Below are positions 3,825 through 32,576 of a stretch of DNA of 32,576 nucleotides, piece by piece. The stretch is taken from the IMG/VR virus record IMGVR_UViG_3300012920_006502, positions 1 to 32,576 of that record; one strand, given 5' to 3'. Position numbers and translations under genes: made by a program. Every line of letters begins with the position of its first letter. The first letter of the stretch is position 1. The notes under the pieces were generated by a model. The model was given only the letters and a program-made list of their open reading frames with translations. It searched no databases and was not told the origin of the DNA. The DNA comes from a virus.

Positions 3825-4060
3825 TGTTTCACCCTTTCCAAGAAGACCCAAAATTATTATCAGAAACTGAATTAACACAGAAAATATCCGAATTGGGCAA
3901 AAAATATACCCAAGCCGCACGTTTAGGCAATGGTGAACTGTTGACACAACTCCAAACATTTGTTACAATATATAGAGATGAATTACGTAGAAGAGCAATG
4001 CAACCTATAAAAACAAATGATGAAGATAAGGATTTGGATCAACTTATAAATGTCGACTAA
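3824..4060 (+). CDS. small conserved phage protein, function unknown
   Basis: A 78-residue, mostly helical, charged protein beginning MFHPFQEDPKLLSE. Residues about 15-60 look like a continuous amphipathic helix or helix pair (ELTQKISELGKKYTQAAR, then FVTIYRDELRRRAM). The acidic tail is EDKDLDQLINVD. The start overlaps the stop of the gene at 3210 in TAATG, and its own end overlaps the gene at 4050 by 11 bases, so it sits inside a translationally coupled string. I recognise the look of a conserved small phage protein but no function; a coiled-coil adaptor or assembly factor is possible. Confidence 0.6.
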   Translation: MFHPFQEDPKLLSETELTQKISELGKKYTQAARLGNGELLTQLQTFVTIYRDELRRRAMQPIKTNDEDKDLDQLINVD

Positions 4061-4514
4061 CACAATCACAGAAGTAATTGACGGTATTAAAAAACACGGT
4101 GCTGATATATTAGAGCATTGTGTAATAGACAATGCTGACCAGTACATAGATAGAATAAACAAAGAATTTCTCAACTATCCTAAACCAAAAAATAAATTAG
4201 ATACAAACAATTGGTTTATGCCCGACAGTTATAAAAATATGGATATTGAAAAGTTTGTTTTAATGCAATGCAAAACAGATGAACAAATAGAACGAGTAAA
4301 TATAGAACTTAAAGAATTTGAAAAAAGAAATCTTATGATGCTACTTAAACAGGTAAAATACATAGTAGATACATTAAGATCAAATAATATTGTTTGGGGT
4401 GTAGGAAGAGGTTCAAGCGTAGCAAGTCTTGTGCTTCACATATTAGGGGTCCACAAGATTGATCCGATTAAATACAATATACCACTTAACGAATTCTTTA
4501 AACAAGGAGACTAA
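4050..4514 (+). CDS. fragment-like DNA polymerase III alpha (DnaE) homologue lacking catalytic aspartates
   Basis: A 154-residue protein. Residues about 90-150 align by eye with the DnaE palm region just before the active site: a long helix (QIERVNIELKEFEK...KQVKYIVDTLR), the nucleotide-binding GVGRGSSVASLVLHILGV (DnaE form GPGRGSGAGSLVAYAL), and DPIKYNIPLNEFF (DnaE form DPL.YDLLFERF). It ends there, before the PDxDxDF segment that carries the catalytic aspartates, and no PHP domain precedes it. It therefore cannot be a complete polymerase. The phage has its own family-B polymerase at 27832. It may be a decoy, a dNTP sensor or a replisome-binding domain; that is inference. The ATG overlaps the preceding gene by 11 bases. 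Confidence 0.65.
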   Translation: MSTNTITEVIDGIKKHGADILEHCVIDNADQYIDRINKEFLNYPKPKNKLDTNNWFMPDSYKNMDIEKFVLMQCKTDEQIERVNIELKEFEKRNLMMLLKQVKYIVDTLRSNNIVWGVGRGSSVASLVLHILGVHKIDPIKYNIPLNEFFKQGD

Positions 4515-6132: not shown

Positions 6133-6491
6133 TGTCTGATCAAAATAAGATTTACAGTGACGGTTTAAAATTTAAATCTTTAAACATTGAAGGAACTGTT
6201 GTTAAAAAGGACGATAGATATATTGTAAAAGATAACACTGTCCTTAAAAATCTTATTGTAAGTAGCACTCGATTAAATCCAAAGAAAAGTACATCTGGAC
6301 ACTTCCACAAAGGACAAGAAGAAGTCTATATGTTTATAGAAGGCCATGGCACCATGGAACTTGATGGTGTAATGCATAAAGTAGAAGCAGGGGACACAGT
6401 TTTAATACAAGATGGTGTCTTTCATCGTGTCCATGCAGACACAGTAGAACTATATTTTGTATGTGTGTTTGATGGAAGGAGAACCGTTTGA
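6132..6491 (+). CDS. cupin-domain protein
   Basis: A 119-residue single cupin with a GTG start sharing one base with the preceding stop. Motif 1 is GHFHKGQEEVYMFIEGHG (about residues 57-74), carrying the H-x-H...E metal ligands. Motif 2 is GDTVLIQDGVFHRV (about 87-100), with the last metal-binding His. The protein resembles the sugar-isomerase and epimerase-type small cupins. It lies between the MazG-like gene and hemC with 4-base overlaps, so it is part of the metabolic operon. The substrate is unknown; a nucleotide-sugar role would fit the cytidylyltransferase at 7218, but that is a guess. Confidence 0.75.
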   Translation: MSDQNKIYSDGLKFKSLNIEGTVVKKDDRYIVKDNTVLKNLIVSSTRLNPKKSTSGHFHKGQEEVYMFIEGHGTMELDGVMHKVEAGDTVLIQDGVFHRVHADTVELYFVCVFDGRRTV

Positions 6492-7225
6492 AAGTAGGAG
6501 TTCGTGGTAGTAAGTTAGCCTTGACCTATGCGCAAAAAGCAATCGATGCATTAGGCGAAGGTCAAATAGAAATAATCAAAACGGACGGAGACCTTCATCC
6601 TGATACTCCTATACATGAGATTGGAGGCAAGGGTGTGTTCTGCAATGCTATTGAACAAGCTCTTGTACAAGGACTTATTGATGTAGCAGTGCATAGTTTA
6701 AAGGATATGCCTGGAGATGTAGAACATCCAGATCTACATATATGCGCGGTGTTGGAACGTGCAAGACCTTATGATGTTATAATAGGCAAAGTATTTGATA
6801 GTTGTATTATAGGAACAAGTAGTCCTAGACGTAAAGCACAATTAGAACAACTATATGAAAATCATCATGTACAAATAAAACCTATAAGAGGAAATATAGA
6901 TACTAGACTTGCAAAATTAGATGCAGGTGAATATGATGCTATTGTACTTGCAGAAGCAGGATTAGATGCATTAGGTATTAAAAGAGATTACATAAGATTG
7001 CCTATTGTTCCAGCGGTTGGACAAGGTATAATTGCATTGCAGACTCGCAAAGACGATACAAAAACAAATGATATCGTTAGTAAAGTAAATCACAAATTAA
7101 CATATGCTCAGGCAAAATTAGAAAGAGCGTTGTTAAAAGGAATAGCAGGAGATTGTCATACTAAAGTTGCAGGCCATGCAACAGGTAGCAATCCTATTAA
7201 ACTAGAGGCAGTATATTATGAGTGA
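6488..7225 (+). CDS. hemC: hydroxymethylbilane synthase (porphobilinogen deaminase), C-terminally short
   Basis: A 245-residue HemC, the enzyme that polymerises four porphobilinogens into hydroxymethylbilane in heme, siroheme, cobalamin and chlorophyll synthesis. Visible motifs: RGSKLAL (6-12), DVAVHSLKDMP (65-75) with catalytic Asp73, IGTSSPRRKAQL (about 107-118), RGNIDTRLAKLDAGEYDAI (about 135-153), PAVGQGIIALQTR (about 175-187), and Cys223 in GDCHTKVAGHA, the expected dipyrromethane attachment site. All catalytic landmarks are intact. Only 22 residues follow that Cys, against about 70 in E. coli (313 total), so domain 3 is truncated to its core. The start is TTG, behind GGAAGGAG, overlapping the cupin stop as TTGA. 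I infer an auxiliary metabolic gene that boosts host tetrapyrrole flux. Confidence 0.88.
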   Translation: MKVGVRGSKLALTYAQKAIDALGEGQIEIIKTDGDLHPDTPIHEIGGKGVFCNAIEQALVQGLIDVAVHSLKDMPGDVEHPDLHICAVLERARPYDVIIGKVFDSCIIGTSSPRRKAQLEQLYENHHVQIKPIRGNIDTRLAKLDAGEYDAIVLAEAGLDALGIKRDYIRLPIVPAVGQGIIALQTRKDDTKTNDIVSKVNHKLTYAQAKLERALLKGIAGDCHTKVAGHATGSNPIKLEAVYYE

Positions 7226-14349: not shown

Positions 14350-15192
14350 ATGGACTATTATTCAACACTAGGCGTAAGCAGAAATGCAAGCCAAGAAGAA
14401 ATAAAAAAGGCTTATAAAAAACAGTCTATGGCCCACCATCCAGATCGTACAGGTGGCAACGATACCAAATTTAAAGAAATAAACGAAGCATACCAAACAC
14501 TTAACGATCCTCAAAAGAAACAAATGTATGATCAGTTTGGAACTACTGATCCTAATCAGCGTAGATACAATTCACAAAATTTTGAATTCAATTTTAACGG
14601 ATCTCCATTTAGTGGCGGAATGGACGACATATTCGAATCATTTTTTGGCGGAAGAGGGCAATCTAGAAGAGCAGCCAATCGACCAATAAATGTCGCTGTT
14701 GATGTTTCACTAGAAGATGTTTTGCACGGTAAAACTATAGGCATGGAAATACAACTTCCTACAGGCAGGACAAAAGTTGTAACAGTTGACATACCAAAAG
14801 GTGTAGAACACGGACAAACAGTAAGATACAGAGGTATGGGAGAACAAAATATACCAAATGTACCTCCAGGTGATTTAAATGTGCAAATACGCATTCGGAA
14901 TCACAATAGGTTCCAACGCTACGGAGATAATATACTATGTGAAGTAAAAGTTGATGTATGGGATCTAATGTTAGGTTCAAAAGCAAAAGTTATCACGTTA
15001 GATAATAGAAGCATTGAAATTAATATACCCTCAGGCACACAACCTGATACTTTACTAAGTTGTAAAGGAGAAGGATTACCTAATATTAATACAAAAATTA
15101 GAGGTAATTTGCAAATAAGAATAAAAGCAAATATACCTAGATATACCGAACACCAAAAAAATATATTAAGAAACACAAAAAATGGAATATAA
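14350..15192 (+). CDS. DnaJ/CbpA-type J-domain co-chaperone
   Basis: A 280-residue Hsp40. The J domain occupies residues 1-66, with HPD at 30-32 in AHHPDRTGGND, the motif that stimulates the ATPase of host DnaK. A Gly/Phe region (about 77-102, NFEFNFNGSPFSGGMDD, IFESFFGG) follows. The C-terminal client-binding beta domains contain GVEHGQTVRYRGMGEQ and SIEINIPSGTQPDTLLSCKG. The CxxCxGxG zinc-finger repeats of DnaJ are absent, so it is CbpA-like (class B). No phage DnaK is in the window, so it would redirect the host chaperone. AAGGAGGA precedes the ATG. The end overlaps the deformylase gene by 11 bases. Confidence 0.9.
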   Translation: MDYYSTLGVSRNASQEEIKKAYKKQSMAHHPDRTGGNDTKFKEINEAYQTLNDPQKKQMYDQFGTTDPNQRRYNSQNFEFNFNGSPFSGGMDDIFESFFGGRGQSRRAANRPINVAVDVSLEDVLHGKTIGMEIQLPTGRTKVVTVDIPKGVEHGQTVRYRGMGEQNIPNVPPGDLNVQIRIRNHNRFQRYGDNILCEVKVDVWDLMLGSKAKVITLDNRSIEINIPSGTQPDTLLSCKGEGLPNINTKIRGNLQIRIKANIPRYTEHQKNILRNTKNGI

Positions 15193-15715
15193 ATTAGACA
15201 TAGATTATAAGTTAGGCTTACACGAAGCACTTAACCAGCAAAGTGATGTGTGGGAATTCGGCAAAGAAAAATACGACCCAGAAAAATTAGAATGGGATAT
15301 GTGTAATTTTATGATTCATAATAAAGGAATTGGCCTTGCTGCTAATCAAATAGATTTAACAAAAAGAGTTTTTGTAATGGGCAGCAATGATATTCCAAAT
15401 TTTCCTAAACCATTTGCGTTGTTTAATCCAACAATACTAGAAGCCAGCAAAGAACTTGTGTTAGATACAGAAGGATGTTTAAGTTACCCTGGCTTACTTA
15501 TAAAAGTATCAAGACCTGCATGGATTGTAGGACAATGGCAAAATTCAAAAGGGGAAACTAAGGAAGGAAAAATACAAGGTTATCTTGCAAAATGTTTTCA
15601 ACATGAGTTTGATCACCTAAATGGCATTTGTTTTGTTGACAGAGTGAGTCGGTTGAAGTTACAATTAGCATTAAAGAAATTAAAAAAGTTAAGGAAAAAA
15701 TTAAAAAATGATTGA
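15182..15715 (+). CDS. def: peptide deformylase
   Basis: A 177-residue PDF that removes the N-formyl group from nascent proteins using a bound Fe/Zn. All three family motifs are present: GIGLAANQI (about 49-57), EGCLS (97-101, Cys ligand), and QHEFDHLNG (about 140-148) with the two His ligands and catalytic Glu142. After the active site comes a Lys-rich C-terminal helix (LKLQLALKKLKKLRKKLKND), longer and more basic than in short phage PDFs and possibly a ribosome-binding helix like that of bacterial PDF. It overlaps both neighbours (11 and 8 bases), so it is co-expressed with the J-protein and ClpA. Confidence 0.92.
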   Translation: MEYKLDIDYKLGLHEALNQQSDVWEFGKEKYDPEKLEWDMCNFMIHNKGIGLAANQIDLTKRVFVMGSNDIPNFPKPFALFNPTILEASKELVLDTEGCLSYPGLLIKVSRPAWIVGQWQNSKGETKEGKIQGYLAKCFQHEFDHLNGICFVDRVSRLKLQLALKKLKKLRKKLKND

Positions 15716-18050
15716 GCCAAGCAAGCAATTACAAAATATATTTGATAAGTCTGTAGAGATTACTAAAAGTTATAAGCATAGATTGATTACACTAGAGCAT
15801 TTAATTTTTGCAATTGTTTCTGACGAAGAATCAGCCGCTGGCCTTAAGGCATTTGGAGCAGATGTAGATTATATTAAATCTAATTTAGATCACTATTTGA
15901 AAAATAATCTTAAAGATATTATTGCTGACCAACAAAATCTACTGCCAAAAAAGACCAACAGTGTTGAAAGAGTGCTTAATAGATGCTTTACACAGGTTTT
16001 GTTTAGTGGCAGAAATCAAATGGAAATTGCTGATGTTATAGTAAGCGTATTATCTGAGAAGAATAGTTTTGCTTTTTACTTTTTAACAAAAGGTGGAATA
16101 ACTAAAGAGAAATTTGTACAGCATTTCCAAAAACATTTTATAGAAGAAGATGAGTTTTTTGAAAACGAAAGCGGATCAGGTCCTTTAACAAACGATCAAC
16201 TTGACAAAATTATAAATCAATTTTGTGATAATTTATCTTTAAAAGCAAAACAAAAAAGAATAGATCCTGTAATTGGAAGAGATATTGAACTGGAAGATAT
16301 TGCGTTAGTTTTAGCACGTAGAACAAAATCAAATGTATTAATGGTAGGTGATCCAGGTGTTGGTAAAACTGCTATTGCTGAGGGGTTAGCACGTAAGATT
16401 CATGAAAAGAAAGTTCCTAAATTTATTCAAGATCACACAGTATATAATTTAGATATAGGTTCTTTAGTTGCTGGTTCTAAATACAGAGGAGACTTTGAAG
16501 AAAGAATCAAAGCAGTATTAAGTGCATTAGAAAGAAAAGGAAATATTATACTGTTCATAGACGAAGCTCATATGATGTCTGGTGCAGGAACTGCTAGTCA
16601 AAGTTCAAACGACTTAGCAAACATGTTAAAGCCTGTACTTGGAAAAGGCGGAATGAAAGTAATTGCTTCTACTACTTGGGAAGAATACAGAAAATACTTT
16701 GAAAAAGATCGTGCTTTAATGCGTAGATTCCAGCGTGTAACTGTTGATGAGCCTACACAAGAAACCACTATTAAAATTATAAAAGGATTAAAAAAATATT
16801 ATGAACAATATCATAATGTTGGTATTACAAATGAAGCAATAGAACAAGCAGTTAAATTGTCTATTAAATATATGTCAGATAAAAAACTTCCTGACAAAGC
16901 AATTGATATTATAGACTGTGCATCTGCTAGATATAAGTTGCATGATGATCCTGTTGAAGAAGGTATACAACAGATAGTAGATGTTGAACAGGTGACTTAT
17001 GAATTATCTAAAATGATAAAAATGCCTTTAGAAACAGTAGCACAGAAAGAAAGTAAAAATTTACAAAATCTTGAACCTGCTATGAAGTCTGCAATATTTG
17101 GGCAAGATGATGCAGTTGATAAATTACTAGATAAAATCTTTGTTGCACAGGCTGGCTTAAAATCTCCAGATAAGCCTATTGGTTCATTTTTATTCTTAGG
17201 GCCAACTGGCTGTGGTAAAACAGAAACAGCAAAACAACTTGCTGATAAAATGGGAATGACACTTATTAGATTTGATATGAGTGAATATCAAGAGAAACAT
17301 AGTGTAGCCAGATTGATAGGTGCACCTCCAGGATATGTAGGCTATGAAGAAAATGCAGGACAACTAATTACAAAATTACAAGAAACACCTAATTCAATAC
17401 TGTTGCTTGACGAGATAGAAAAAGCACACCAAGACGTTTCTAATATATTGTTACAATTTATGGATAACGGTTTTGTTACTGGATCAAACGGTAAACAAGC
17501 AGATGGAAGAAACACAATACTAATAATGACTAGTAACTTAGGTGCTGCAGACAATGAAAATAACACTATTGGGTTTGACGATCTAGAAAAGTATGATGAG
17601 GACGAGAAAGCAGTAAAAAACTTTTTTGCACCAGAATTTAGAAATAGGCTAGATGCTACAGTAAAATTTGGCAAACTATCGCAAACAGTTGTTAAAGAAA
17701 TTGTATCTAAATTTGTAAGTGAGCTAAACGCACAAGTTAAAGATAAAAATATAACTATTAAGGCAGATGCTGAAACTGTATCATGGCTCGCTAAGAAAGG
17801 TTATAGTAAAAAAATGGGTGCAAGGCCACTTGGAAGATTAATTGACACTGAAATAAAAACTCCACTTAGTAAAAAGGTACTGTTTGGTGATTTAGCAGAT
17901 GGTGGTATAGTTAACATCAATATAGTAGATGACAAGCCTACATTTACAATTACACCTGCTCCTAAGCCCATGACTAAAGCAGAACGTAAAGCAGCAAAAG
18001 CAGCAGCAAGAAAATCTGAAAATGAAACTGCCGACAGCCAAGAAAACTAA
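15708..18050 (+). CDS. clpA: ClpA-type AAA+ unfoldase
   Basis: A 780-residue Hsp100 protein. An N-domain-like region covers about 1-150. D1 has Walker A GDPGVGKT (about 214) and Walker B ILFIDEAHMM (about 281). D2 has Walker A GPTGCGKT (about 498) and Walker B ILLLDEIEKA (about 565). The long middle domain of ClpB is absent. IGF (about residue 621, in NNTIGFDDLEKY) sits where ClpA carries the IGL/IGF loop that docks on ClpP, just before FFAPEFRNRLDA. It can therefore be expected to feed substrates to host ClpP; no clpP or clpS is in the window. The last 30 residues are an Ala/Lys-rich tail (KAERKAAKAAARKS). The end overlaps the next gene by 29 bases. Confidence 0.9.
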   Translation: MIEPSKQLQNIFDKSVEITKSYKHRLITLEHLIFAIVSDEESAAGLKAFGADVDYIKSNLDHYLKNNLKDIIADQQNLLPKKTNSVERVLNRCFTQVLFSGRNQMEIADVIVSVLSEKNSFAFYFLTKGGITKEKFVQHFQKHFIEEDEFFENESGSGPLTNDQLDKIINQFCDNLSLKAKQKRIDPVIGRDIELEDIALVLARRTKSNVLMVGDPGVGKTAIAEGLARKIHEKKVPKFIQDHTVYNLDIGSLVAGSKYRGDFEERIKAVLSALERKGNIILFIDEAHMMSGAGTASQSSNDLANMLKPVLGKGGMKVIASTTWEEYRKYFEKDRALMRRFQRVTVDEPTQETTIKIIKGLKKYYEQYHNVGITNEAIEQAVKLSIKYMSDKKLPDKAIDIIDCASARYKLHDDPVEEGIQQIVDVEQVTYELSKMIKMPLETVAQKESKNLQNLEPAMKSAIFGQDDAVDKLLDKIFVAQAGLKSPDKPIGSFLFLGPTGCGKTETAKQLADKMGMTLIRFDMSEYQEKHSVARLIGAPPGYVGYEENAGQLITKLQETPNSILLLDEIEKAHQDVSNILLQFMDNGFVTGSNGKQADGRNTILIMTSNLGAADNENNTIGFDDLEKYDEDEKAVKNFFAPEFRNRLDATVKFGKLSQTVVKEIVSKFVSELNAQVKDKNITIKADAETVSWLAKKGYSKKMGARPLGRLIDTEIKTPLSKKVLFGDLADGGIVNINIVDDKPTFTITPAPKPMTKAERKAAKAAARKSENETADSQEN

Positions 18051-25805: not shown

Positions 25806-26339
25806 ATGTTAACAGTTTTAGATCAACCATTAAACATTATAGGTAATGCTGAAAGCATATTTTCCAAAAGTAATGGACACATTATTGACAGTCTTCCTAC
25901 TGTAAGATTTAACAGGGCTGAAATAATTGATACCAACTCACAAGGAAGTAGATGGGATTTCTTAGCATCGAGCGAAATAAACACTTTTGAAAAATATAAT
26001 GCTGAGACTCCAAAGTTTCATACACTTATTTTTACACCAAACAAACAAGAATTTGAATACAAAATAAGGAAAGTAAAATTTAAAGCAAAGCAACTAAAAC
26101 TACCTTTGTTTCAATCACAATGGTTACAGAATATGCTAGATGCGCCGCCATCAACAGGATTACAAATCTTGCATTATCTAAGCGAAAGTAACAATACTAA
26201 TGTTAATATTTTTGGTTTTGATTTTAAAGAAACTAAGACTTTTTATGAAACAAGAAACAAAGGAAAACACGATTACGATAAAGAAAAACATTTTATATTA
26301 AATTTAGTTGATAAAAATGGTTGGAAAATTTATAGGTAA
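25806..26339 (+). CDS. GT29 (sialyltransferase-family)-like glycosyltransferase
   Basis: A 177-residue protein with the sialyltransferase motifs in order. Motif L-like: IIGNAESIFSKSNGHIIDSL (11-30), then VRFNRAEI (33-40), like VVGNSG...IDS...VIRFNRAP. Motif S-like: PSTGLQILHYL (115-125) with NIFGFDF. Motif VS-like: HDYDKEKHF (155-163), where His155 would be the catalytic base. GT29 enzymes use CMP-sialic acid. There is no membrane anchor, and at 177 residues it is shorter than animal enzymes (about 300-400). It stands alone, bounded by a terminator and by the sigma-70 promoter at 26343. It may decorate phage or host glycans; whether the donor is CMP-activated is unknown. Low-GC composition matches its neighbours. 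Confidence 0.75.
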   Translation: MLTVLDQPLNIIGNAESIFSKSNGHIIDSLPTVRFNRAEIIDTNSQGSRWDFLASSEINTFEKYNAETPKFHTLIFTPNKQEFEYKIRKVKFKAKQLKLPLFQSQWLQNMLDAPPSTGLQILHYLSESNNTNVNIFGFDFKETKTFYETRNKGKHDYDKEKHFILNLVDKNGWKIYR

Positions 26340-26395: not shown

Positions 26396-26686
26396 ATGTC
26401 AAGAAGTTATGGACCAGAAGAAAAAGCAAAATTAGAAAGGCTAATTAGCGAAGGTTCAAATGTACTACGTGAAGTAGAAGATTTGAACGAAGGACTTAAG
26501 GATACTGTAAAAGCAGTAGCAGAAGAACTACAAATCAAACCAAGCACAATTAATAAAGCAATTAAAATTGCACACAAGGGTGATTGGGCAAAGCATGAAG
26601 AAGAATGGAACGATATTGAAGGCATTTTAGGTATAACTAAAAATTTGCCTGATGACGTTTCGGGACCACGTGCGGATGACGCATAA
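26396..26686 (+). CDS. DsbA-like dsDNA-binding protein
   Basis: A 96-residue charged helical protein. The N-terminal helix is YGPEEKAKLERLISEGSNVL. The core is TVKAVAEELQIKPSTINKAI followed by HKGDWAKHEEEWNDIEGIL, resembling T4 DsbA (89 residues), in which a similar helix pair ends in a K..D/E...E..E segment before the last helix. T4 DsbA binds double-stranded DNA and affects late-promoter activity. Here it follows a strong early promoter with AGGAG, consistent with production before the late switch. The match is by eye and moderate; a generic helix-turn-helix protein is the alternative. Confidence 0.55.
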   Translation: MSRSYGPEEKAKLERLISEGSNVLREVEDLNEGLKDTVKAVAEELQIKPSTINKAIKIAHKGDWAKHEEEWNDIEGILGITKNLPDDVSGPRADDA

Positions 26687-30553: not shown

Positions 30554-31291
30554 ATGAAAGACATTTTACAAGATATTGTCAGCCACACACAGAACTTAGG
30601 TTTTCTAACAACTGTAAAAGTGTCTGGCGAAGAAGAAAAGACAGGAATGTTTTCAATGGCTGATGATAGATCAGTTATTATGGAAGCAGACACGCATAAT
30701 CCTTATCCGGATATGATTGGCACATTTGGTATGCCGCAACTTAACAAGTTAAAATACTTGATTGATGGTACTGAATATCAAAAGGATGCAAAAATTAGTA
30801 TAACAAGTGCTGAAAGAAATGGTGCTACTATTCCTGTAGGTATTCATTTCGAAAACAGTGACGGTGATTTTAAAAATGATTATAGATTTATGAATCAAGA
30901 AATCATTAATGAAAAAATGAAAACTGTAAAGTTTAGAGGTGTTAACTGGGATGTAGAAGTTGTTCCAACACTTTCAGCAGTACAAAGATTCAGTTTTCAA
31001 GCAGGTGCTAATCCAGAGCATCCAACATTCTTAGCAAAGACTGAAGATGGTAATTTAAAATTTATCTTTGGTGATGCTAGTACACATGGCGGTGAGTTTA
31101 TTTTTGCTACTGATGTGACAGGTACACTTAATAAAGGTTGGACTTGGCCAGTAGCGAGCATTCTTGCTATTCTAAAAATTGCAGATGTAAACAACACTAA
31201 GATGAGTATCAGTAATGAAGGTGCTATTCAAATTACACTAGATAGTGGATTAGCAAATTACAAATATATCATTCCAGCACAGGCGGCCTAA
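30554..31291 (+). CDS. 45: sliding clamp (gp45)
   Basis: A 245-residue protein (T4 gp45 is 228) that would form a trimeric ring tethering gp43 to DNA and, in T4, also activate late transcription. PCNA-like features: GMFSMADDRSVIMEADTHN (about 31-49), then DMIGTFGMPQLNKLKYLI (about 53-70), resembling the gp45 inner-helix region, and the second half LSAVQRFSFQAG, LKFIFGDAS, and EGAIQITLDSGLANYKYIIP (about 222-241). AGGAG precedes the ATG, with its own promoter. The clamp-loader gene lies 22 kb upstream. The stop codon is part of the TAAATA box before the last gene. Confidence 0.85.
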   Translation: MKDILQDIVSHTQNLGFLTTVKVSGEEEKTGMFSMADDRSVIMEADTHNPYPDMIGTFGMPQLNKLKYLIDGTEYQKDAKISITSAERNGATIPVGIHFENSDGDFKNDYRFMNQEIINEKMKTVKFRGVNWDVEVVPTLSAVQRFSFQAGANPEHPTFLAKTEDGNLKFIFGDASTHGGEFIFATDVTGTLNKGWTWPVASILAILKIADVNNTKMSISNEGAIQITLDSGLANYKYIIPAQAA

Positions 31292-31299: not shown

Positions 31300-32576
31300 A
31301 TGAAACAACCAGTCAACTTAACACCATTACAGAAAGACTACGCAGTGTATTTGCCTGCAATTAGTTCTTTCTTCAGCACTTATATTGCTAAACAACGTAA
31401 GGAAGAGTTCGTTCCTAAGGAACGTATTCCGCAGGGTTTTGATCGCGGCATTGAAGGTATGAACTTTTTAAATGAAGAAGAAGGATACTTTACATACAAA
31501 TATGGATTGTATTCAGCAGGACACGCACAATTGAATCTCGACAAAACAATGGAACAAGATGCAATGGTGCAAACACGTGATCGTGGCAAAACAATGATAC
31601 TTGGTGACTCAGGCGGTTATCAGGTTGGTAAAGGTGTTCTTAAGTTTGATTGGCTAAACTTTGAAGGTGCTGCTGCTAATAAAGTTAGAGATGATATTCT
31701 TAATTGGCTTGAACTAACAGCAGACTGGAGTATGCTACTTGATGTTCCGACTTGGGCATGTGATCATATTCACTCACCTAAGACTGGACTTAAGAGTTTT
31801 GAGGATTGTTTAGATAAGACAAGGTTTAATAACAAGTATTGGTTAGAACGTAGACTAGGCGCAACTAAGTTTTTAAATGTGCTACAAGGATCAGACTGGG
31901 ATACTGCTGAGAAGTGGTACGAAGGTGTTAAAGAATTCTCCGATCCTAAAGTATGGGGAGACAAAGCATGCGAAGGTTGGGCAATGGGCGGTGCTAATAT
32001 GTGCAAAATGCCTATTACATTACGTAGATTGATGACTATGAAATTTGATGGTATGCTAGAAGGCAAGGACTGGATGCACTTTTTAGGTACTGCGCAACTT
32101 GATTGGTCGTGTTATCTTACATCAATACAAAGACAGGTAAGGAAACATATTAATGAGAACTTCACAATCAGTTTCGACTGTGCAAGCCCTTTTATTGCTA
32201 CAGCACATGGGTTGGTGTATACTAACTCGCAACACACAAGTAAACGTTGGTCAGTTATTATGGATAAAGCCCCTGATAATAAGATGTTGGCCGGACGGAA
32301 CGATGTTCCTTTCCCGTTCGAAAGTGAAATTGGAAGACGTTTGTCGATCGCAGATATTTGCCACTATGCGCCGGGCATGCTAAACAAGATTGGCAAAGAA
32401 GGTAAAACTAGTTGGGATAGTTTTGGTTATGCACTTATGATGGCGCACAATGTTTATCAACATATTGTTGCTGTCCAGAGAGCAAATAATCTTACTGATA
32501 TTGAACTTGCGAAAGAACGTCCAGACTGGAGACAGTGGCGCAAAGTTAAAGATGCAGATAAAAGTGATGAATATTC
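31300..32576 (+). CDS. TGT-fold DNA transglycosylase, probable DpdA (partial, runs off the window)
   Basis: An open frame of 425 codons without a stop before the window end. The tRNA-guanine transglycosylase landmarks occur in order and near the expected spacing: ILGDSGGYQV with Asp103 (TGT DSGGFQ), SMLLDVPTWA with Asp148, FLNVLQGSDW with Gln196 (TGT VQG), GWAMGGANM with Gly230, MHFLGTAQLDW, and FTISFDCASPF with Asp293, the expected nucleophile (TGT FDCV.P). The bacterial CxCxxC zinc site after the nucleophile is not visible. In phages, DpdA proteins of this fold exchange guanine in DNA for a 7-deazaguanine, protecting against restriction. No que/fol precursor genes occur in the window. The assignment to DNA rather than tRNA modification is inference. 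Confidence 0.75.
   Translation, partial: MKQPVNLTPLQKDYAVYLPAISSFFSTYIAKQRKEEFVPKERIPQGFDRGIEGMNFLNEEEGYFTYKYGLYSAGHAQLNLDKTMEQDAMVQTRDRGKTMILGDSGGYQVGKGVLKFDWLNFEGAAANKVRDDILNWLELTADWSMLLDVPTWACDHIHSPKTGLKSFEDCLDKTRFNNKYWLERRLGATKFLNVLQGSDWDTAEKWYEGVKEFSDPKVWGDKACEGWAMGGANMCKMPITLRRLMTMKFDGMLEGKDWMHFLGTAQLDWSCYLTSIQRQVRKHINENFTISFDCASPFIATAHGLVYTNSQHTSKRWSVIMDKAPDNKMLAGRNDVPFPFESEIGRRLSIADICHYAPGMLNKIGKEGKTSWDSFGYALMMAHNVYQHIVAVQRANNLTDIELAKERPDWRQWRKVKDADKSDEY

Follow-up and report, generated by a model that had tools for sequence, protein, structure and literature searches.

A diverged DpdA-like transglycosylase gene beside the polymerase and clamp genes of jumbo phages, predicted to represent a new family linked to deazaguanine synthesis

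The gene at the right edge of IMG/VR virus record IMGVR_UViG_3300012920_006502, a fragment of 32,576 bases that was analyzed as a whole (referred to here as the window), raises two questions: whether it encodes a DNA-guanine transglycosylase of the DpdA type, as an earlier note based on the letters alone had proposed, and which base such an enzyme would insert. The open reading frame (ORF) (positions 31300 to 32574, plus strand) starts 8 nt past the stop codon of the clamp gene (31291) and has no stop codon up to the window end, the right edge truncating the gene. The remainder, which the earlier note had suggested seeking in adjoining sequence, was recovered from the near-identical contigs L001, L002, and L005; these share ~95 to 97% nucleotide identity across the window end and complete the ORF to a protein of 515 aa. 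The gene, its motifs, and its upstream neighbors are listed in Table 1.

Table 1. Positions in the window of the dpdA-like gene, its motifs, and the genes upstream
Feature	Position	Strand	Remarks
dpdA-like gene, TGT/DpdA superfamily, predicted new family	31300..32576	+	5' 425 codons present; ~90 3' codons beyond the window
DSGGYQ motif, residues 103-108	31606..31623	+	D, S, G, G, Q invariant 38/38; D103 is the predicted general-base Asp, TGT D102 type
LDVP motif, residues 147-150	31738..31749	+	D, P invariant 38/38; aligned with DpdA2 FDEIP
VLQGS motif, residues 194-198	31879..31893	+	Q 31/38, S 7/38; TGT substrate-pocket Gln
EGWAMGG motif, residues 225-231	31972..31992	+	G226 38/38; GGL-type loop of TGT, aligned with 'fdgyaiggl'
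MHFLG motif, residues 259-263	32074..32088	+	H, L, G 38/38; YLMGVG of TGT, HxLG of DpdA2
SFDCASP motif, residues 291-297	32170..32190	+	D 38/38; aligned with E. coli Tgt MFDCVMP
Sliding-clamp gene (phrog_12062)	30554..31291	+	phrog_12062 E=2e-37; directly upstream of the dpdA-like gene
Family B DNA polymerase, T4/Rak2-like jumbo-phage type	27832..30495	+	PF00136 E=3e-34, phrog_262 E=3e-197; best relatives in jumbo phages
DsbA-like late transcription regulator	26396..26686	+	phrog_12534 E=2e-19, phrog_639 E=2e-12; upstream of the polymerase

Conservation was assessed in 38 diverse members with identities down to about 30%, and 14 positions were invariant in all of them (D103, S104, G105, G106, Q108, D148, P150, G197, G226, H260, L262, G263, D293, and S296). 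(i) The motif DSGG(F/Y/L)Q with its general-base Asp was found in all 78 sequences of a wider set. (ii) An (F/Y)D(C/S) motif carrying the nucleophile Asp follows HxLG in 38/38 members, and D293 is the predicted catalytic nucleophile, of the TGT D280 type. (iii) The three Asp residues D103, D148, and D293 are kept in 43/43 phage-type relatives of the wider set and in 35/35, 35/35, and 34/35 (one gap) of the cellular relatives, respectively. (iv) The CxCxxC zinc site is absent from all 38 members scanned, in agreement with the earlier note. Its further claim that the catalytic landmarks of TGT are all present in order held as to presence and order, whereas the second motif differs: it reads LDxP in 38/38 members, against an FDEIP that is invariant in seven DpdA2 proteins, D148 corresponding to the Asp of the TGT motif FDE and the Glu being lost. 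The missing Glu, the diverged sequence, and an additional C-terminal segment of ~100 to 200 aa in this family would fit a protein that has kept the fold and the catalytic residues but carries out a different base exchange (at the level of free nucleotides, for example) or is no longer an enzyme. Such a change of function appears very improbable to us, since the Asp triad is invariant in phage and bacterial relatives and the gene is linked to deazaguanine genes.

Neither Pfam, PHROGs, NCBIfam, nor PADLOC gave a match for the dpdA-like protein, and sequence and profile searches of the PDB returned nothing meaningful. HMMER searches with DpdA2 and TGT models ranked the candidates highest among the ORFs, though with E values of only about 0.01 to 1; the case therefore rests on profile-profile comparison. 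With an alignment of 38 relatives as the query and eight neighboring-gene families as controls, we obtained E=2.6e-7 for seven DpdA2 proteins (range, Prob 93 to 95 and E of 3e-8 to 3e-7, with motifs in register) and E=2.4e-6 for four canonical TGTs, while the comparisons with arcTGT/bacterial DpdA (E=0.017) and with DpdA1 of 9g/CAjan (E=0.12) were not significant. The profile alignments brought DSGGxQ, LD-P/FDEIP, QG, GWAMGG/GYAIGG, HxLG, and SFDCASP/MFDCVMP into register. Values of 1e-6 to 1e-7, against at least 0.07 for all eight controls, confirm at the level of sequence that the likeness to DpdA2 and TGT exceeds chance. In addition, when the Marzo genome was searched with the family profile, the sole match fell in the annotated DpdA2 gene (E=0.0015). 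As judged by sequence, these comparisons show that the predicted product of the ORF belongs to the TGT/DpdA superfamily.

Within this superfamily, the DpdA2 of Vibrio phage nt-1 (YP_008125322; PMC6884629) shares with the window protein the order of the DSGGxQ, HxLG, and S(F/Y)D motifs and is likewise associated with FolE, QueD, and QueE. Unlike DpdA2, however, this protein lacks BLAST-level similarity (E=0.83 against nt-1 DpdA2) and has LDxP in place of FDEIP, phrog_10773 (DpdA2) matches neither it nor the relative in Vibrio phage 2.275.O, and the new family adjoins the polymerase and clamp genes and usually lacks QueC. Only the 2.275.O protein links the family to nt-1 DpdA2 by BLAST (E=8e-4). 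Canonical E. coli Tgt has its catalytic Asp motifs in register with the family but differs in possessing CxCxxC and queA/queF neighbors and in matching PF01702, a profile that matched nothing in the window and 0/21 relatives, against 14/14 control genomes. DpdA1 of 9g and CAjan shares the probable function, and its gene also adjoins the replicative clamp gene; it differs in its profile and smaller size (about 310 aa) and in the presence of QueC in 9g. Since the sequence tests for tRNA TGT, DpdA1, and DpdA2, the groups covered here, failed, we describe a new DpdA-like family, which by sequence is separate from DpdA1, from BLAST-level DpdA2, and from tRNA TGT; DpdA3 and DpdA4 are further groups, reportedly defined by Cui 2023. 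The call of a diverged DpdA-type transglycosylase is thus supported by the profile comparison, the invariant catalytic Asp residues, gene linkage, and the lack of PF01702 and QueA matches; of the comparison with DpdA groups that the earlier note had recommended, the likeness to DpdA2 was upheld but membership in DpdA1 or BLAST-detectable DpdA2 was not.

The gene neighborhood was analyzed within 10 kb of the dpdA-like gene in 46 non-redundant loci. Genes found near it were those for the clamp (44/46), a GT-B glycosyltransferase (43/46), a phrog_17812 protein (43/46), the polymerase (40/46), the DsbA-like regulator (39/46), QueE (37/46), and FolE (36/46), so that the placement directly after clamp and polymerase noted earlier proved to be a conserved linkage. 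The consensus order is DsbA-like regulator, polymerase, clamp, dpdA-like gene, 176-aa protein, 131-aa protein (phrog_17812), 364-aa GT-B glycosyltransferase, FolE (PF01227, E=8.5e-41), phosphoribosyltransferase-like protein, QueE (phrog_2076, E=1.8e-51), and RNase H; QueE lies downstream in the relatives and outside the window. Because a PDB search with the clamp gave no match, its identity rests on position and on a homologue annotated as DNA polymerase III sliding clamp beta in Sinorhizobium phage Phosso. In that phage, the dpdA-like gene has moved to the primase/helicase region, and polymerase, clamp, phrog_17812, glycosyltransferase, FolE, and QueE are still together. No match was found for the 176-aa neighbor, to which the "glycosylase" that takes its place in Phosso is not homologous. 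The conserved protein between FolE and QueE (L008:16457-17011 and 31 further loci) carries a PRPP-binding-like motif, DDINDTGAT, and one may speculate that it salvages the released guanine.

A census of pathway genes in 21 contigs and genomes, several of which are fragments, detected QueE in 21/21, FolE in 19/21, and QueD in 11/21. QueC was strong in only 1 (2.275.O), with a 55-residue partial match in another; QueF and YhhQ were each found in 1/21, and QueA in none of the 21 phages carrying the dpdA-like gene. The 2.275.O member adjoins QueF, YhhQ, QueC, and FolE. PA5oct encodes FolE, QueD, and QueE, and QueC was not found in it; the absence of QueC is firmest for the complete genomes of PA5oct and Phosso. 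Of the folE/queD/queE/queC-type genes that the earlier note had proposed to look for, three were thus present in relatives and the fourth was nearly absent.

These data bear on the substrate. A transglycosylase acting on tRNA, with which the phage would boost queuosine or archaeosine, belongs to the same superfamily, the canonical TGTs gave a significant profile match, and FolE, QueD, and QueE feed queuosine as well. We nevertheless regard this as improbable in view of the missing PF01702 match and zinc site, the scarcity of QueF and lack of QueA in the carrier phages, the constant polymerase/clamp linkage, and a likeness to DpdA2 at least as close as that to TGT. A true tRNA TGT is therefore not indicated, and the pointer to 7-deazaguanine is supported by the conserved linkage of polymerase, clamp, FolE, and QueE; we infer that the substrate is DNA, that the base is of the 7-carboxy-7-deazaguanine (CDG) type, and that the modification would protect from restriction.

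As to the base, the gene content of the 21 contigs and genomes does not indicate a full phage pathway to preQ0 (FolE, QueD, QueE, and QueC), and these phages are predicted to be able to make CDG themselves but not preQ0. The near-constant lack of QueC makes preQ0 from a full phage pathway an improbable base. The host may supply QueC, giving preQ0, in which case the DpdA-like enzyme would insert preQ0 or a later product and the neighboring glycosyltransferase would be unrelated. Host QueC is common, host help was considered by Hutinet et al. (PMC6884629), and one relative, 2.275.O, encodes QueC and QueF itself. We consider this host-dependent route somewhat unlikely, given that FolE, QueD, and QueE are equally available from the host and yet are kept by the phages, and that the pair of glycosyltransferase and phrog_17812 tracks the absence of QueC in two DpdA families, which is hard to reconcile with an unrelated gene.

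This pair was inspected further. The glycosyltransferase, which may resemble mannosyltransferases, was matched by PF00534 in 12/27 members (best E=3.4e-7); examples of the family are found at L008:12934-13971, L226:4257-5285, L227:1734-2894, and L230:4644-5810. Its profile matches 20/21 phages with the dpdA-like gene and also phages with a true DpdA2, namely, Acidovorax phage ACP17 (E=3e-85), Xanthomonas phage X1 (2e-49), and Synechococcus phage BUCT-ZZ01 (5e-118), in which the glycosyltransferase gene either adjoins dpdA2 or is two genes away from it. Like the new family, these three phages combine FolE, QueD, QueE, a dpdA gene, the GT-B enzyme, and phrog_17812, with no QueC detected in a genome search; their transglycosylase, by contrast, is DpdA2. 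Conversely, QueC is present in pf16, nt-1, Marzo, 9g, and 2.275.O, which lack both glycosyltransferase and phrog_17812 (in the last four, the former was searched in whole genomes and the latter in genome parts). The exclusion is perfect, five lineages versus five, with a one-sided probability of 1/252 for lineages that were chosen after the fact. Holding across two DpdA families, it supports a QueC-independent, CDG-derived, sugar-bearing base and suggests that the pair takes the place of QueC, with CDG or its product as the substrate, in combination with either DpdA family. That FolE, QueD, and QueE make CDG, a DpdA-family enzyme inserts it, and the pair glycosylates it, as a QueC-independent DNA modification, is a tentative but possible scheme. 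The modifications described in PMC6884629 do not include a glycosylated deazaguanine in DNA. The phrog_17812 protein (121 to 146 aa; L122:13851-14213 and 42 further loci) has HxH, SCEM, and SED motifs that resemble a QueD/PTPS fold, and it lacks the usual Cys; with weak statistical support, this resemblance is a lead only (hhalign gave E=3e-4 after trimming and 0.1 before, and Pfam PTPS matched 4/24 members at E=0.03). We know of no report of glycosylated deazaguanine in DNA in later work either.

Taken together, we consider it highly probable that the gene encodes a DpdA-like DNA-guanine transglycosylase of a new family, with a CDG-type base made via FolE, QueD, and QueE and modified DNA that would resist restriction. 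We count against it the BLAST result with nt-1, the absent Glu of FDE, and the location of QueE outside the window. The enzyme would cut the glycosidic bond of guanine with the nucleophile D293, as in TGT and DpdA, hold a covalent DNA intermediate, and, after replication, rejoin a 7-deazaguanine base with D103 as the general base. This base would be supplied by FolE, QueD, and QueE, whose genes lie a short distance downstream or at other places in related genomes, synthesis stopping at CDG where QueC is missing, and the modified DNA would withstand host restriction. Our best reading of the inserted base is CDG or a derivative; its further decoration by the GT-B glycosyltransferase and the phrog_17812 protein is more speculative. 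In known systems, DpdA is required for DNA modification and the modification protects from restriction, but phage Orion has dpdA and unmodified DNA (PMC6884629), so the presence of such a gene does not necessarily imply that the DNA is modified.

Members of the family occur in more than 500 IMG/VR stretches, and jumbo-phage contigs carry them by the hundreds. By its polymerase and clamp relatives, the present phage belongs with the Rak2/121Q/Phosso type of jumbo myophages. Scans with single sequences (the 2.275.O and Phosso proteins) retrieved few loci, whereas alignment-based scans succeeded. Among named phages, members with 44% identity are found in eleven Pseudomonas phages of the PA5oct type, and others in Phosso and 2.275.O; they are annotated as hypothetical protein in PA5oct, Paride, Callisto, MIJ3, Phosso, and 2.275.O, and deazaguanine goes unmentioned in publications on PA5oct, MIJ3, Callisto, and Paride. 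An abundant, unannotated family, including proteins of cultured phages, is thus added to the DNA-guanine transglycosylases, and PA5oct, Paride, Callisto, MIJ3, and Phosso probably carry modified DNA. The linked glycosyltransferase and the missing QueC amount to a specific prediction of a new DNA base, of relevance to restriction, type IV restriction, phage editing, and sequencing artifacts.

A scan of bacterial genomes retrieved about 40 relatives with ~26 to 34% identity and the same Asp triad on proteobacterial contigs (L265 to L302, e.g., L267:6307-9308, L278:6264-9254, and L302:6073-9242), which in a quick tree fall nearly into a single cluster. In 27/40 loci they directly follow an unannotated gene for ~540 to 660 aa; neither gene was matched by Pfam or PADLOC in the examples tested, and no FolE, QueE, or QueD homologues were detected nearby. 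Tyrosine recombinases lie near these members, as do restriction-modification genes in two loci examined, and this branch is a candidate two-gene mobile module.

Other ORFs of the window, all on the plus strand, include one of 154 aa (4050-4514) corresponding to part of the NTPase domain of DNA polymerase III alpha (PF07733, E=2e-12), the phage polymerase being of family B; one with weak, below-cutoff similarity to sialyltransferase (25806-26339; PF00777, E=3.5e-4); a porphobilinogen deaminase-like protein (6488-7225; PF01379, E=1.4e-59) with a weak, partial match to the C-terminal domain; and tandem genes for DnaJ, peptide deformylase, and a Clp ATPase (14350-18050), which form a phage proteostasis cluster.
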